Positions 46,842 to 52,372 of a DNA stretch of 64,000 nt are shown here, piece after piece. Location of the stretch: contig NZ_CP119422.1 of assembly GCF_030506285.1 (NCBI RefSeq), forward strand, positions 6,559,501-6,623,500. The letters are read 5' to 3'. The stretch is from Catalinimonas niigatensis. Lineage in GTDB: Bacteria; Bacteroidota; Bacteroidia; Cytophagales; Cyclobacteriaceae. A program made the translations under genes and the position numbers. Positions within the stretch are counted from its first letter, which is position 1. Each line of letters starts with the position of its first letter. The notes beneath the pieces were generated by a model. It searched no databases. It had not been told where the DNA came from and was given only the letters and a program-made list of their open reading frames with translations.

Positions 46842-47225
46842 ATGGAAACACTTAAAAAAGTTCTTTTGATCAATGCAGTAAGTTCGGCAGCATGTGGTAT
46901 TTTGCTGGCAGTAATGCCCACCAAAATGGCTGAATTATTTGAGGTAAGCCAGGCCTGGCCTTTTATCGCAACAGGAATCTTCCTGATTGTTTTTGCAGAT
47001 GTCGTACTCTATGCTTTTTTCAGGAAATCACCGGGAAGAGGTCTGATCAAATCCATTATTTATCTGGACATTAGCTGGGTGATGATTAGCCTGTTGATTG
47101 TTGTACTGGCGCTATTCAATCTTTCTACCCTGGGCTACCTGCTCATCAGTGGAGTGGCTTTGTGGGTAGCATTGATGGCCTATTTACAAAACTCGGGATT
47201 AAAGAAAATGCAGCTTACCCAATAA
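46842..47225 (+). CDS. small four-helix membrane protein of unknown function
   Basis: A 127-residue inner-membrane protein. Four hydrophobic segments can be read: residues about 7-27, 39-57, 69-92 and 96-113. No motif that I recognise beyond general similarity to small DoxX-like or integral membrane proteins. It is divergent from the AraC regulator and ends at a clear terminator, so it is a monocistronic target candidate of that regulator. Confidence 0.75.
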   Translation: METLKKVLLINAVSSAACGILLAVMPTKMAELFEVSQAWPFIATGIFLIVFADVVLYAFFRKSPGRGLIKSIIYLDISWVMISLLIVVLALFNLSTLGYLLISGVALWVALMAYLQNSGLKKMQLTQ

Positions 47226-47947: not shown

Positions 47948-48391
47948 ATGCTTTCAAAAAAAGCCAAATACGGAATTAATGCTCTGGTCTATCTGGCCAA
48001 AAAATACGAGCAGGGCCCTTTACTTATCGGAGATATTGCTACGCATGAGAACATTCCAAAAAAATTTCTGGAAGCTATTTTACTGGATCTTAAAAACGTT
48101 GGAATTCTTGGCAGCAAAAAAGGCAGGGGAGGAGGATACTACCTCATTAAGTCACCGGATGAAGTAAATATGGCTGATGTCGTCAGGCTGTTTGATGGAG
48201 CGATTGCTTTTCTGCCCTGTGTTACCCATCGCTATTACGAACGCTGTGAAGAGTGCAAGGACGAAAAAACCTGCGGCATCAGGAGCCTGTTCAAAGAAGT
48301 ACGCGACCAAACTGTAGAAATGCTGAAAAACAATACCCTTTCAGACATCATTGCCCGTGAGCAGGCAATCATTGAACAGGAAGATATCTGA
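47948..48391 (+). CDS. Rrf2 family transcriptional regulator
   Basis: A 147-residue winged-helix regulator. The DNA-binding half is typical (LSKKAKYGINALVYLAKK, then IPKKFLEAILLDLKNVGI, then SKKGRGGGYYL). Four cysteines at 91, 100, 103 and 109 (FLPC...ERCEECKDEKTC) could bind an Fe-S cluster, as in IscR-type sensors, or sense thiols as in CymR-type proteins. It sits directly upstream of the palindrome, tiny ORF and SLC13 permease, which are its probable targets. Confidence 0.92.
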   Translation: MLSKKAKYGINALVYLAKKYEQGPLLIGDIATHENIPKKFLEAILLDLKNVGILGSKKGRGGGYYLIKSPDEVNMADVVRLFDGAIAFLPCVTHRYYERCEECKDEKTCGIRSLFKEVRDQTVEMLKNNTLSDIIAREQAIIEQEDI

Positions 48392-48421
48392 AAGATGAAA
48401 TTTTTTATTTTTAAACTCTAG

Positions 48422-48450
48422 TTGGTTTATAGAGTTTATGCATATATTTG
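48422..48450 (+). promoter_or_regulatory. Bacteroidota-type promoter upstream of the SLC13 transcript
   Basis: TTG at 48422-48424 and TATATTTG at 48443-48450 are spaced by 18 bases; the second is an exact TAnnTTTG -7 element. Transcription would start at about 48456, inside the palindrome listed next. Confidence 0.75.
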
Positions 48451-48453
48451 TAT

Positions 48454-48476
48454 AAGTCTACAAAATTTGTAGGCTT
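48454..48476 (+). promoter_or_regulatory. palindromic operator candidate overlapping the transcription start
   Basis: AAGTCTACAAA / TTTGTAGGCTT around a central A: 11-base arms matching at 10 of 11 positions, with a perfect seven-base core CTACAAA-A-TTTGTAG. Position just after the -7 element means a bound repressor would block initiation. The adjacent Rrf2 gene makes its product the best candidate binder. Confidence 0.6.
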
Positions 48477-48496
48477 TACTTATTTATACCAAAATC

Positions 48497-48580
48497 ATGC
48501 ACAATTTCTTCAGCACAGTCCATTGGTATGAGGATGGGCTTCCCGCTCCTTCTCTTGCTTCTATTCAACTCTTAAATTGA
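48497..48580 (+). CDS. 27-residue leader ORF upstream of the SLC13 permease
   Basis: An ATG at 48497 opens a 27-codon frame ending in TGA at 48578-48580, seven bases before the permease ATG at 48588. The peptide begins MHNFFSTVHWYEDGL and ends in a Leu/Ile-rich tail (SIQLLN). It lies after a promoter and operator and before the transporter, so it is well placed for translational coupling or attenuation. It has no leader-peptide-type run of one amino acid and no cysteine. Short length means it may be chance. Confidence 0.4.
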   Translation: MHNFFSTVHWYEDGLPAPSLASIQLLN

Positions 48581-48587
48581 TTCTTAC

Positions 48588-50381
48588 ATGACTGCTGATG
48601 CTGTTATTGTACTCATTATTTTGGTTACAGCCATTGTCTTATTTGTAACCGAATATCTTTCGGTAGACCTGGTAGCCGTACTCATTCTGCTTTCCCTGAC
48701 CTTTACCGGAGTGATCACTGCACAGGAAAGTGTAGAGGGCTTTAGCAATTCTGCCACCGTGACCGTAGCCGCCATGTTTGTGCTGAGTGCAGCATTGCTT
48801 AAGACAGGGGCACTCCAAATGGTGAGTATCCAACTGGCTGCCCTCTTCCAGCGGAATTATAAGCTGGGACTGATGGTGATGATGGTGACCATTGCTACTG
48901 TTTCGGCATTTATCAACAATACGCCCGTGGTGGCCGTGATGATTCCCATTGCTATTCAGGTAGCCCGAGCGGCCAATGTACCTCCTTCCAAACTGTTAAT
49001 GCCGGTTTCTTTCGCCTCTATCTTCGGCGGAACCTGTACACTATTGGGTACTTCAACCAACGTAGTAGTGAGTGGAGTCATGGAGAAGAGTGGGCTAGGA
49101 CCAATGGACATGTTTCAGATGACACCTATGGGACTTATCTTTCTGGCGGTGGGAATCTTATTTATGATGAGTGTGGGTTATCGCCTCTTACCGCATCGGA
49201 ATAGTTCAGAGAATTTAAACGAAAAATTTGGTATACAGGACTATGTGACGGAAATAGAGCTGCTGGAGGGAGCTCCTTCAGTGGGCAAAAGGATCATGGA
49301 TTCGCCATTGATTAAAGAACTGGGCATGGACGTGATTGAAGTGAACAGAGATGGAAATGCCTTCGTCTTACCCCAGGGAGATATGATGCTGCAATCACAT
49401 GATCGGCTGAAAGTACGCTGTGATGTAGAGAAGATTAAATCGCTCAAAGACAAGGAACAGTTTGCCAACCGTCCTACCATGACCATCGGTGAAGACGGGC
49501 TCACCCTGCGAGATATGGCATTGGTAGAAATTGTGATTCCCAATGGGTCTGAGTTTGAAGGAAAAACACTGAAACAACTGGACTTTCGCCGCTCTTTTCG
49601 CGCTATTCCTTTGGCCATCAAACATCGGGAAGAAGTGATCCATGCTAACCTGTACCAGGTAGAATTACAAGCCGGAGATATATTGCTGGCAGAAGTGAAA
49701 AAACACCATATTCCCAATCTGAAGAAACAGTTCGGCGGTTCTAAACCACCTTTTATCCTGCTTTCTGAAAATGGGCTAACCGACTTTGACAAGCGTAAGT
49801 TTATCATCACACTAGTCACGCTGGTGGGCGTATTTACCGTTGCAACTCTAAATCTACTCCCGATTATGAGTTGTGCCATTGCCGGAGCTGTTGTGTTGGT
49901 ACTTATGCGCTGCATCAGACTGGATGAAGTGTACGAAGCTATAGAATGGAAAGTGATCTTCTTACTGGCAGGCGCTTTGTCGCTGGGGGTGGCAATGGAG
50001 AAAAGCGGGCTTGCCAATGTGATTGCTCATTCGTTGGTAAGTAACCTGGGACAGTGGGGGCCCATAGCCATCGTATCGGGATTGTATCTGGTGACCTCTT
50101 TGTTGACCGAAGTAATGTCAAACAATGCTACTGCAGCGCTGCTGGCGCCTATTGCCATTGTGACTGCCCAATCTTTAGGATTAAGTCCGATTCCTTTTCT
50201 CATGGCCATTACCTTTGCGGCCTCAGCCAGCTTTATGACGCCAGTAGGTTATCAGACCAACACCATGATCTATTCGGCAGGGCAGTATAAATTTCTTGAT
50301 TTTATCAAAGTGGGAAGCTGGCTCAACTTATTGTTCTGGATACTGGCTACCATACTGATTCCAATGATATTTCCTTTTTAG
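48588..50381 (+). CDS. SLC13 family permease with TrkA-C domains
   Basis: A 597-residue inner-membrane carrier of the divalent anion/Na+ symporter type. The membrane halves lie at about 1-205 and 395-597, with the family motifs NNTPVVAVMIPIA and FGGTCTLLGTSTNVV in the first half and SNNATAALLAPIAIV and SFMTPVGYQTNTMIY in the second. Two TrkA-C (RCK-C) ligand-binding domains fill about 215-375. In Bacteroidota such carriers often move sulfate or dicarboxylates. The upstream Rrf2 regulator with four cysteines favours sulfur or redox control; substrate is inferred. Confidence 0.92.
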   Translation: MTADAVIVLIILVTAIVLFVTEYLSVDLVAVLILLSLTFTGVITAQESVEGFSNSATVTVAAMFVLSAALLKTGALQMVSIQLAALFQRNYKLGLMVMMVTIATVSAFINNTPVVAVMIPIAIQVARAANVPPSKLLMPVSFASIFGGTCTLLGTSTNVVVSGVMEKSGLGPMDMFQMTPMGLIFLAVGILFMMSVGYRLLPHRNSSENLNEKFGIQDYVTEIELLEGAPSVGKRIMDSPLIKELGMDVIEVNRDGNAFVLPQGDMMLQSHDRLKVRCDVEKIKSLKDKEQFANRPTMTIGEDGLTLRDMALVEIVIPNGSEFEGKTLKQLDFRRSFRAIPLAIKHREEVIHANLYQVELQAGDILLAEVKKHHIPNLKKQFGGSKPPFILLSENGLTDFDKRKFIITLVTLVGVFTVATLNLLPIMSCAIAGAVVLVLMRCIRLDEVYEAIEWKVIFLLAGALSLGVAMEKSGLANVIAHSLVSNLGQWGPIAIVSGLYLVTSLLTEVMSNNATAALLAPIAIVTAQSLGLSPIPFLMAITFAASASFMTPVGYQTNTMIYSAGQYKFLDFIKVGSWLNLLFWILATILIPMIFPF

Positions 50382-50459
50382 AAAATGTACGCAAGGCTAC
50401 TAACCTAAGACAAAAACCAGCGTATGTTTAGCCAATAAGGCCAATCCTAATTTATAGTC

Positions 50460-51074
50460 ATGTATACTCCAAAACACTATTCCATCACTGATCAGGAGGA
50501 AATTCTTTTCTTTATCCGGCGATTTAACTTTGGAACCATCATTACTTCCAGGGAAAACATACCTATGGCTACCCACCTGCCTTTTATTGTCTCCAAAAGA
50601 GAAAGTAAACTGATACTGATTTCGCACTTTGCCAGGGCCAATCCGCATTGGCAGGAAATCACTGCCCATCAAAATCTGGTGATTTTTAGCGAACCACACG
50701 CCTATGTTTCTCCCGGCTTTTATGATAAAAAGCAGAATGTACCTACCTGGAATTATATCTCAGTACATGCTTATGGACAGGCTAAAATTATCGAGGAACA
50801 GGAAGAAAGCCTGCGGATACTGGAAAATATGATTGATAGCTTTGAAGCAGCCTATAAAGCGCAGTGGAACACTCTGGACATGGGTTATAAACTCAGGATG
50901 CTGAAAGGTATCGTAGCTTTTGAAATAGAGGTTACAGAACTACAGGCCAAAGGAAAATTGAGTCAGAACAAAACGGAAGCAGAGAGGCAAAGAATTACAG
51001 CCTCTTTCTCTCAAAGTGGAAGCGAGAACGAAAGACTAATAGCTGAATATATGCAGAAAATGAACAATGTGTAG
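50460..51074 (+). CDS. FMN-binding PaiB-like negative transcriptional regulator
   Basis: A 204-residue PaiB family protein with a split-barrel flavin fold. Family segments are MYTPKHYSITDQEEILFFI at the N-terminus, THLPFIVSKRE, SHFARANPHW and PTWNYISVHAYGQAKI. PaiB in Bacillus represses sporulation and protease genes, but homologues elsewhere may be enzymes. The C-terminus (about 145-200) contains the IVAFEIEVTELQAKGKLSQN segment. Monocistronic. Confidence 0.9.
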   Translation: MYTPKHYSITDQEEILFFIRRFNFGTIITSRENIPMATHLPFIVSKRESKLILISHFARANPHWQEITAHQNLVIFSEPHAYVSPGFYDKKQNVPTWNYISVHAYGQAKIIEEQEESLRILENMIDSFEAAYKAQWNTLDMGYKLRMLKGIVAFEIEVTELQAKGKLSQNKTEAERQRITASFSQSGSENERLIAEYMQKMNNV

Positions 51075-51221
51075 CATTGCTTTTCTTACTTATCTGATAT
51101 AACTCTTTCTATGTTACTTTTTATCTCTTAGCGATGAACCTAATCTCTGTTTTGTAGAATAAAACCTCAGATTGTGCAGCTATTATTGCCGTAATACACA
51201 ATTAGTAATTTCTGCTAATTT

Positions 51222-51248
51222 TTCAGCGTTTTTTAATAAAACGCTGAA
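51222..51248. promoter_or_regulatory. strong hairpin between paiB-like and small exported protein genes
   Basis: TTCAGCGTTTT at 51222-51232 and AAAACGCTGAA at 51238-51248 form an 11-base-pair perfect stem with a five-base loop. It is 150 bp after the upstream stop and 100 bp before the next start. Terminator for the PaiB-like gene or a 5' leader structure are both possible. Confidence 0.55.
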
Positions 51249-51350
51249 TTACAAATACTTAAGATGATTTTTAATCCTTTGGCACGGTTCTTTTATAAGG
51301 AGTTGATGTACTTAAAACTTAATTTTTTGAACATAAAAATTTTTTTAGAT

Positions 51351-51680
51351 ATGAAACGTAAAATCATTGCTGTAACAGCACTAGCCACTTTTTCATTTGC
51401 AAGTATCGGAGCAAACGCGATTCCGGTAAACTATGGAAACGATGAAGCTGTAGTGGTCAAAGTAAAGGATGAACGTAAGGAAATCAAGTACGAAGAACTT
51501 CCTGAAGAAGTGAAGAATGCATTTGAGGAATCTCAGTACGGAGAGTGGGAAGTATCTAAAGTGGAAGAAGTAGAAATGGAAGCGGAAGCACAGGCAGAAA
51601 AAAAGTACGAATTAACCATTACCGATGGTTCGCAATCAGGAATTCTGGCCTTTGACGAAAGCGGTAAAATGGTACAATAA
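51351..51680 (+). CDS. small acidic exported protein, PepSY-like
   Basis: A 109-residue protein with a signal peptide (KRKIIAVTALATFSFASIGANA), then a soluble acidic domain. The segment IKYEELPEEVKNAFEES and the later KYELTITDGSQSGILAFDES resemble PepSY-like repeats found in small Bacteroidota periplasmic proteins. The frame is open to 51264 but the signal peptide fixes the start at 51351. Function unknown. A good terminator follows. Confidence 0.75.
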   Translation: MKRKIIAVTALATFSFASIGANAIPVNYGNDEAVVVKVKDERKEIKYEELPEEVKNAFEESQYGEWEVSKVEEVEMEAEAQAEKKYELTITDGSQSGILAFDESGKMVQ

Positions 51681-51723
51681 TATTTTCATATAGGTTTTCA
51701 TGAGTCTATCAGACTCAATGAAC

Positions 51724-51755
51724 AAAACCTGCTCCTTCTTGGTGCAGGTTTTTTG
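51724..51755 (+). terminator. rho-independent terminator
   Basis: AAAACCTGC at 51724-51732 pairs with GCAGGTTTT at 51744-51752 and the T-run continues to 51754. It ends the transcript of the small exported protein. Confidence 0.88.
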
Positions 51756-51838
51756 TGTTTTATGATCAGACAATTCCTAACTTTACTTTGCGTTCAAGAG
51801 CAATTTCAGTTTCTAAAATTATCCCTAAACCCATCCCC

Positions 51839-52372
51839 ATGAGAAATATCGTGTATTATGTAGCCTCCTCTTTGGATGGCTATATTTCAGGGCCAGAGGA
51901 AGATATCAGTATGTATGTGTCAGAAGGCTCAGGAGTTGAGCAATACCTCAAAGACCTGCAATCCTTTGATACCGTGATCATGGGACGTCGGACCTATGAG
52001 TTTGGGTATAAGTTTGGGCTCAAGCCAGGTCAACCTGCTTATCCACATATGGAACACCATATCTTTTCTGAAAATATGCAACTGGAAACCCCCGACCCCA
52101 AAGTGCATGTACATCCGCGATCACTGGACATTATCAGGCATTTGAAAAAAAAAGAAGGTACAGACATCTACCTTTGTGGAGGCGGTGTTTTCGCCGGTTG
52201 GCTGCTGGAGAATGAACTTATAGATTATCTAATCATAAAATTGAGTCCTATTATATTGGGTAGTGGTATTCAACTTTTTGGAGGGGTTAAAAAACAGACT
52301 CAAAATGAACTGATTGACACCCAAACCTATGATCATGGACTAATTATGCTCACGTACAGAATCGGATACTAA
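51839..52372 (+). CDS. dihydrofolate reductase family protein (RibD C-terminal type)
   Basis: A 177-residue DHFR-fold reductase. Segments NIVYYVASSLDGYIS at the N-terminus, TVIMGRRTYEFG, and DIYLCGGGVFAGWLL with IILGSGIQLFGG near the end are typical of the RibD-C/DHFR-like family. NADPH-dependent reduction of a pterin-like or other substrate is likely. I use the ATG at 51839; the longer frame to 51755 has no family similarity. Confidence 0.9.
   Translation: MRNIVYYVASSLDGYISGPEEDISMYVSEGSGVEQYLKDLQSFDTVIMGRRTYEFGYKFGLKPGQPAYPHMEHHIFSENMQLETPDPKVHVHPRSLDIIRHLKKKEGTDIYLCGGGVFAGWLLENELIDYLIIKLSPIILGSGIQLFGGVKKQTQNELIDTQTYDHGLIMLTYRIGY

Follow-up and report, generated by a model that had tools for sequence, protein, structure and literature searches.

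The short region between an Rrf2-family regulator gene and an SLC13 permease gene in Catalinimonas niigatensis carries two copies of one palindrome with a promoter element between them, and we consider it likely that these form a two-operator arrangement through which the Rrf2 protein controls a sulfur-uptake permease, with a mini-ORF in the permease leader uninvolved. Sequence comparison across genomes points clearly to the operators, to the geometry of the promoter and to their links with this Rrf2 clade and with sulfur genes. Positions are those of the window, the whole 64,000-nucleotide stretch of DNA analyzed; the features are collected in the table.

Features of the rrf2-permease region and of two further operator-bearing genes in the same genome
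Feature	Position	Strand	Remarks
Rrf2-family putative repressor, 147 aa, proposed owner of the operators	47948-48391	+	Cys 91/100/103/109; PF02082
Operator P1, AACTCTA-N9-TAGAGTT	48414-48436	.	covers the -33 TTG; 17.9 bits
-33 TTG	48422-48424	+	inside P1; 18 bases then -7 box
-7 box TATATTTG (TAnnTTTG)	48443-48450	+	Bacteroidota primary-sigma promoter; 6/6 consensus positions
Operator P2, 23-bp palindrome AAGTCTACAAAATTTGTAGGCTT	48454-48476	.	over the expected start; 25.1 bits
Mini-ORF, 27 codons + TGA, judged incidental	48497-48580	+	7 bases (48581-48587), then permease ATG
DASS/SLC13 permease, 597 aa, probable sulfate importer	48588-50381	+	Pfam CitMHS, Na_sulph_symp, two TrkA_C
Periplasmic-binding-protein-like gene, TonB receptor next	L087:7001-8332 (G000:C1:5833000-5834331)		two operators, 25.4 and 17.5 bits; long leader
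DUF2490 outer-membrane-like protein	L178:6476-7273 (G000:C1:3323475)		operator, 17.5 bits, 57 bp upstream of start

The Rrf2 stop codon and the permease ATG are separated by 196 bases, within which the -7 box sits between the two operators, themselves 40 bp apart. P2 begins 3 bases past the box and has one mismatched pair in 11; the -7 numbering T-12 to G-5 given in the available part of PMC6847099 puts the transcription start near 48455, within P2. Much of this had been described in the first-pass annotation, and its exact -7 box with an 18-base spacer to a TTG (48422-48450) and its near-perfect 23-bp palindrome at the expected start are both borne out, the latter lying beyond chance when scored by matrix. 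The second operator, P1, is missing from that annotation. A generic sigma-70 scan gave no site at this promoter, and no operator was found 5' of rrf2 in the window that would point to autoregulation (best -7.6 bits).

Comparison of the DNA behind Rrf2 relatives revealed a conserved palindrome, AnTCTA-N9-TAGAnT, directly past the Rrf2 stop codon and just ahead of a -7 box. P1 occupies the place of the relatives' single operator, and P2 is built from identical half-sites at an identical spacing. A symmetric matrix was built solely from sites of 80 Rrf2 relatives in other genomes, and the window was then scored; two of these loci, L089 and L154, are apparently contigs of two genomes already compared. 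The form of the motif seed was picked after the window had been inspected, which counts against our preferred explanation. When all positions of the 64-kb window are ranked, P2 comes first with 25.1 bits, P1 second with 17.9 and the third site reaches 7.4, and both P2 and P1 have the YCTA-N9-TAGR palindrome of this clade above background. An operator of at least 10 bits lies at most 250 bp past the Rrf2 stop in 50 of the 80 loci, compared to 1 of 240 shuffled regions, and widening the region to 350 bp raises the count to 52. A -7 box with at least five of six consensus positions follows 33 of 54 operators at N5-11, the corresponding figure for random places being 102 of 1600. Counting against the operator are the 28 of 80 loci with no site, which include L150 and L152, where sulfite reductase is next, and L121, with a PiT permease; several Pedobacter sites, moreover, score low, at 11-15 bits, and could be fortuitous. 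On these comparisons P2 is probably a real Rrf2 operator and the operator pair is well supported, and the earlier proposal of an Rrf2 control region with the palindrome as operator gains support from its recurrence behind orthologous Rrf2 genes.

Several simpler patterns and isolated sites were considered and set aside. The palindrome-only pattern CTACNAANTTNGTAG is not enriched genome-wide (24 against 27 in controls) because P2 is just one form of the operator, and a looser 23-base pattern with one mismatch allowed is also unenriched genome-wide (227 against 364 in controls); this lack of enrichment counts against our preferred explanation. A pattern of the -7 box plus operator, applied across 59 relatives, returned largely background, though true sites were included. 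Sites within coding sequences in L179 (23.1 bits), L180 (16.9 bits) and L062 (17.7 bits) were discounted as probably fortuitous. L066 was treated likewise: it fits the box pattern, yet by matrix nothing in the 15 kb around it (L088) exceeds 7.1 bits.

Evidence that the paired arrangement is not confined to the window comes from scanning every retrieved locus for an operator pair that encloses a box, which turned up the same sandwich once more, in genome G039. In each of the two, 29 bases separate the -7 box from the point where the first operator starts; the operator spacing is 40 in the window and 42 in G039. The G039 sandwich precedes a periplasmic-binding-protein gene, whose relative in the window genome also carries two operators. 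L028 has one further operator pair, arranged differently. Most relatives have a single operator followed by a very short leader, with at most 38 nt from operator to ATG in 8 of 10 other operator-plus-permease loci; P2 and 111 further bases fill this position in the window. As a separate observation, flavobacterial DUF2061-cys operons in L141, L149 and L165 have two operators roughly 70-80 bp apart.

The genes behind the operator are mostly sulfur genes, which suggests that the operator marks a sulfur-supply regulon. Among the 51 loci with an operator, the first same-strand gene encodes a 1-Cys peroxiredoxin in 11, an SLC13 permease in 8, DUF2061 in 7, a sulfite/nitrite reductase in 5, DUF2490 in 5 and a PAPS reductase in 1, with a binding protein, TauE and cysteine dioxygenase as single cases. 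Six of the seven DUF2061 genes lead into genes for CysD or CysH, two more loci have the permease in second place after DUF2490, and the genes next to the operator include a sulfate-assimilation operon and ABC or PiT uptake genes. First genes are scattered in the 22 loci without an operator (NIR_SIR in 2, DUF2490 in 1), and seven of the 80 loci have no first gene on the Rrf2 strand. The idea that sulfur status governs sulfate uptake, put forward when the region was first annotated, is thus supported by the genes behind the operator.

Two records titled Desulfuromonadales and Geobacteraceae (L143 and L145) have a related Rrf2 gene and an operator-like site of 15.8 and 18.9 bits, respectively; the next gene in L143 encodes a solute-binding protein, and the gene sizes there are of the ABC type. 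Horizontal transfer is a possible explanation for these occurrences outside Bacteroidota. Sulfate and chromate are chemical mimics, and in L077 (G016:C7) the Rrf2 gene is followed by chromate-resistance-type genes, presumably ChrB and ChrA from their sequence, with a DUF2490-like gene between those two.

Within C. niigatensis itself, operators stand before the SLC13 permease, before a binding-protein and TonB-receptor pair, and before a DUF2490 gene. The binding-protein pair is possibly an outer-membrane route of sulfur uptake; relatives in G016 and G039 likewise show two operator-like sites. In other genomes the operator is followed by DUF2490 and then by an SLC13 or PiT permease. Operators also occur at both binding-protein relatives of 55-58% identity (2/2) and at all three DUF2490 relatives of 39-45% (3/3), whereas more distant relatives of either are mostly without one. 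Counting against our preferred explanation, cysDNC, cysH and sulfite reductase in this genome have no operator, the best score being 8.9 bits, within another gene; the regulator here therefore seems to control uptake, not reduction. Also unfavorable is the same-genus genome G001, which retains the Rrf2 protein at 93% and has neither operator nor permease beside it. Set against window positions 47948-52000, this locus (L069) keeps the downstream PepSY and reductase genes and has no permease or FMN-binding gene, and the difference is gain or loss of the permease/FMN-binding pair. At 46842-47225 the window has a 127-aa ORF for which Pfam and NCBIfam gave no match.

The assignment of the permease to sulfate follows from its membership of this regulon. 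Its membrane region is recognized by Pfam above cut-off (CitMHS 277.6 bits, Na_sulph_symp 74.4 bits), it has two TrkA_C stretches, as do SAC1/SLT-like proteins, and other genomes have relatives at 54-61% placed after the same operator. We think it unlikely that the permease carries another anion, such as dicarboxylate, phosphate or molybdate, with the operator linked to it by neighborhood only. Such a substrate would fit the NCBIfam DASS score, which falls short of its cut-off (159.8 against 198.6), and the top Pfam match, CitMHS, with its citrate association. Set against these, the same operator appears to drive sulfate assimilation genes in other genomes, and the available part of PMC8780407 reports that SAC1 proteins and bacterial relatives of theirs have two TrkA-C domains.

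The mini-ORF requires separate consideration. The first-pass annotation had it ending seven bases before the permease ATG; that position stands, but a functional role is not supported. A closed ORF with an ATG start and 27 or more codons turns up in 6.1% of 4000 dinucleotide-shuffled versions of the 137-nt leader, and 16 of 322 real segments of that length outside ORFs contain one as well, a chance frequency of about 5-6%. Carried out across related genomes, the comparison that the annotation had proposed found the mini-ORF conserved in none of 10 comparable operator-plus-permease loci; these have no closed ATG ORF of at least 8 codons before the permease (0/10), two have GTG/TTG ORFs of 10 and 15 codons, and the entire leader is at most 38 nt in 8 of them. 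No similar DNA was found among 58 relatives. The mini-ORF has no Cys codon and uses Met solely as start, so that the regulated amino acid of a leader peptide is missing. That it nonetheless serves as leader peptide or translational coupler for the permease is very improbable, even though its end lies so close to the permease ATG and it has A at -3 and -6, positions that favor initiation in Flavobacterium according to the available part of PMC6847099. The permease start has A at -12 and -13. The two reading frames may be coupled, though nothing calls for coupling; the mini-ORF appears to play no part and looks like chance.

The regulator belongs to the Rrf2 superfamily (PF02082, 114.8 bits against a cut-off of 30). 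The four cysteines pointed out at first annotation are present, invariant in 18 aligned relatives, and their C-x8-C-x2-C-x5-C pattern is conserved in 78 of 80 loci. C91, C103 and C109 do not vary across an alignment of 41 sequences, three distant paralogues among them, while C100 lies in a stretch of about five inserted residues absent from those paralogues. C91, C103 and C109 form the cysteine triple of Fe-S Rrf2 regulators and, by the IscR/NsrR pattern, we take them to be the cluster-binding place. Because the IscR-type triple and C100 are both kept, an Fe-S cluster, perhaps held by the four cysteines, is the sensor we favor and would provide the sensing step. This pattern would allow a cluster with four cysteine ligands, and zinc or thiol chemistry may operate at the cysteines. 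Counting against an Fe-S sensor, structure and sequence are both nearest to CymR, which senses without a cluster: the AF2 model (mean pLDDT 90.6) has its best structural match in B. subtilis CymR, 2y75, with TM 0.76 by query at about 30% identity, followed by RsrR, IscR and NsrR. Neither NCBIfam equivalog is reached, with 76.6 bits against a cut-off of 195 for CymR and 68.9 against 207.55 for IscR.

In the mechanism we propose, a dimer of the upstream-encoded Rrf2 protein would bind the tandem operators, P1 over the -33 element and spacer and P2 over the transcription start. This would block RNA polymerase at the enclosed -7 box, repressing rather than activating the permease, which would be off under good sulfur supply. 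A drop in reduced sulfur, or in a derived Fe-S or thiol signal, would release the repressor, and the permease would then import sulfate.

Different readings of the same parts have to be weighed against this one. The switch may respond mainly to oxidative or thiol stress, with oxidation of the four cysteines driving the repressor off and a rise in sulfate uptake and peroxiredoxin serving to rebuild thiols. We hold this to be somewhat doubtful, although 1-Cys peroxiredoxin heads the count of first genes after the operator (11/51) and, in the available part of PMC9338935, oxidation of a surface cysteine abolishes DNA binding by S. aureus CymR; most other targets are plain sulfate uptake or assimilation genes, and the cysteine pattern contains the IscR-type triple. 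It is distinctly unlikely that P2 acts as RNA, with transcripts starting inside it and a 5'-terminal hairpin that stabilizes the message or tunes translation. The expected transcript is predicted to form a hairpin in its first 21 nt, and folding of the leader is better than that of shuffled versions (z -2.1), but any palindrome at a start site gives rise to such a hairpin, and in relatives the motif is located before the start site and would therefore act as DNA. An Rfam search of the region gave a microRNA as sole match, below threshold and taken as chance.

Two-operator control by the Rrf2 protein, our preferred explanation, has consequences beyond this locus. Together, the motif, its small set of targets and the conserved cysteine loop amount to one testable candidate for a Bacteroidota sulfur regulator, and the link between operator and regulon gives reason to call the SLC13 permease a sulfate importer. 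We raise tentatively the wider possibility that this four-cysteine Rrf2 clade is the main sulfur-supply regulator of Bacteroidota, holding an Fe-S cluster by its four cysteines and acting on uptake promoters sandwiched between operators. The open-access literature searched names no sulfur regulator for Bacteroidota, and the titles and abstract openings covered there contain no description of a sulfur regulon for this Rrf2 protein. The regulatory region is thus of a recognizable kind, and what appears new, among that literature, is the regulon.

Comparison with known systems places each component in context. The promoter shares with the Bacteroidota primary-sigma promoter (-33 TTTG / -7 TAnnTTTG) the -7 box at 6/6 positions, the TTG and the 18-base spacer, and differs in being tightly framed by two operators. 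With the SAC1/SLT-type SLC13 sulfate transporters the permease has in common the SLC13 transmembrane region and two TrkA-C domains; unlike them, it lies under the NCBIfam DASS cut-off, and we infer its transport of sulfate. CymR, the master repressor of cysteine metabolism in Bacillales, forms a complex with CysK as cysteine sensor, and it shares with our protein the Rrf2 fold and a sulfur regulon. This clade differs from CymR, described in the available part of PMC9338935 as binding no Fe-S cluster, in its conserved four-cysteine loop as well as in its targets and phylum. The Fe-S-sensing regulators IscR, NsrR and RirA have the same three cysteines, which are common also to other Rrf2 paralogues of these bacteria, whereas the C. 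niigatensis protein is set apart by a five-residue insert with a fourth Cys and by an operator beside sulfate genes.
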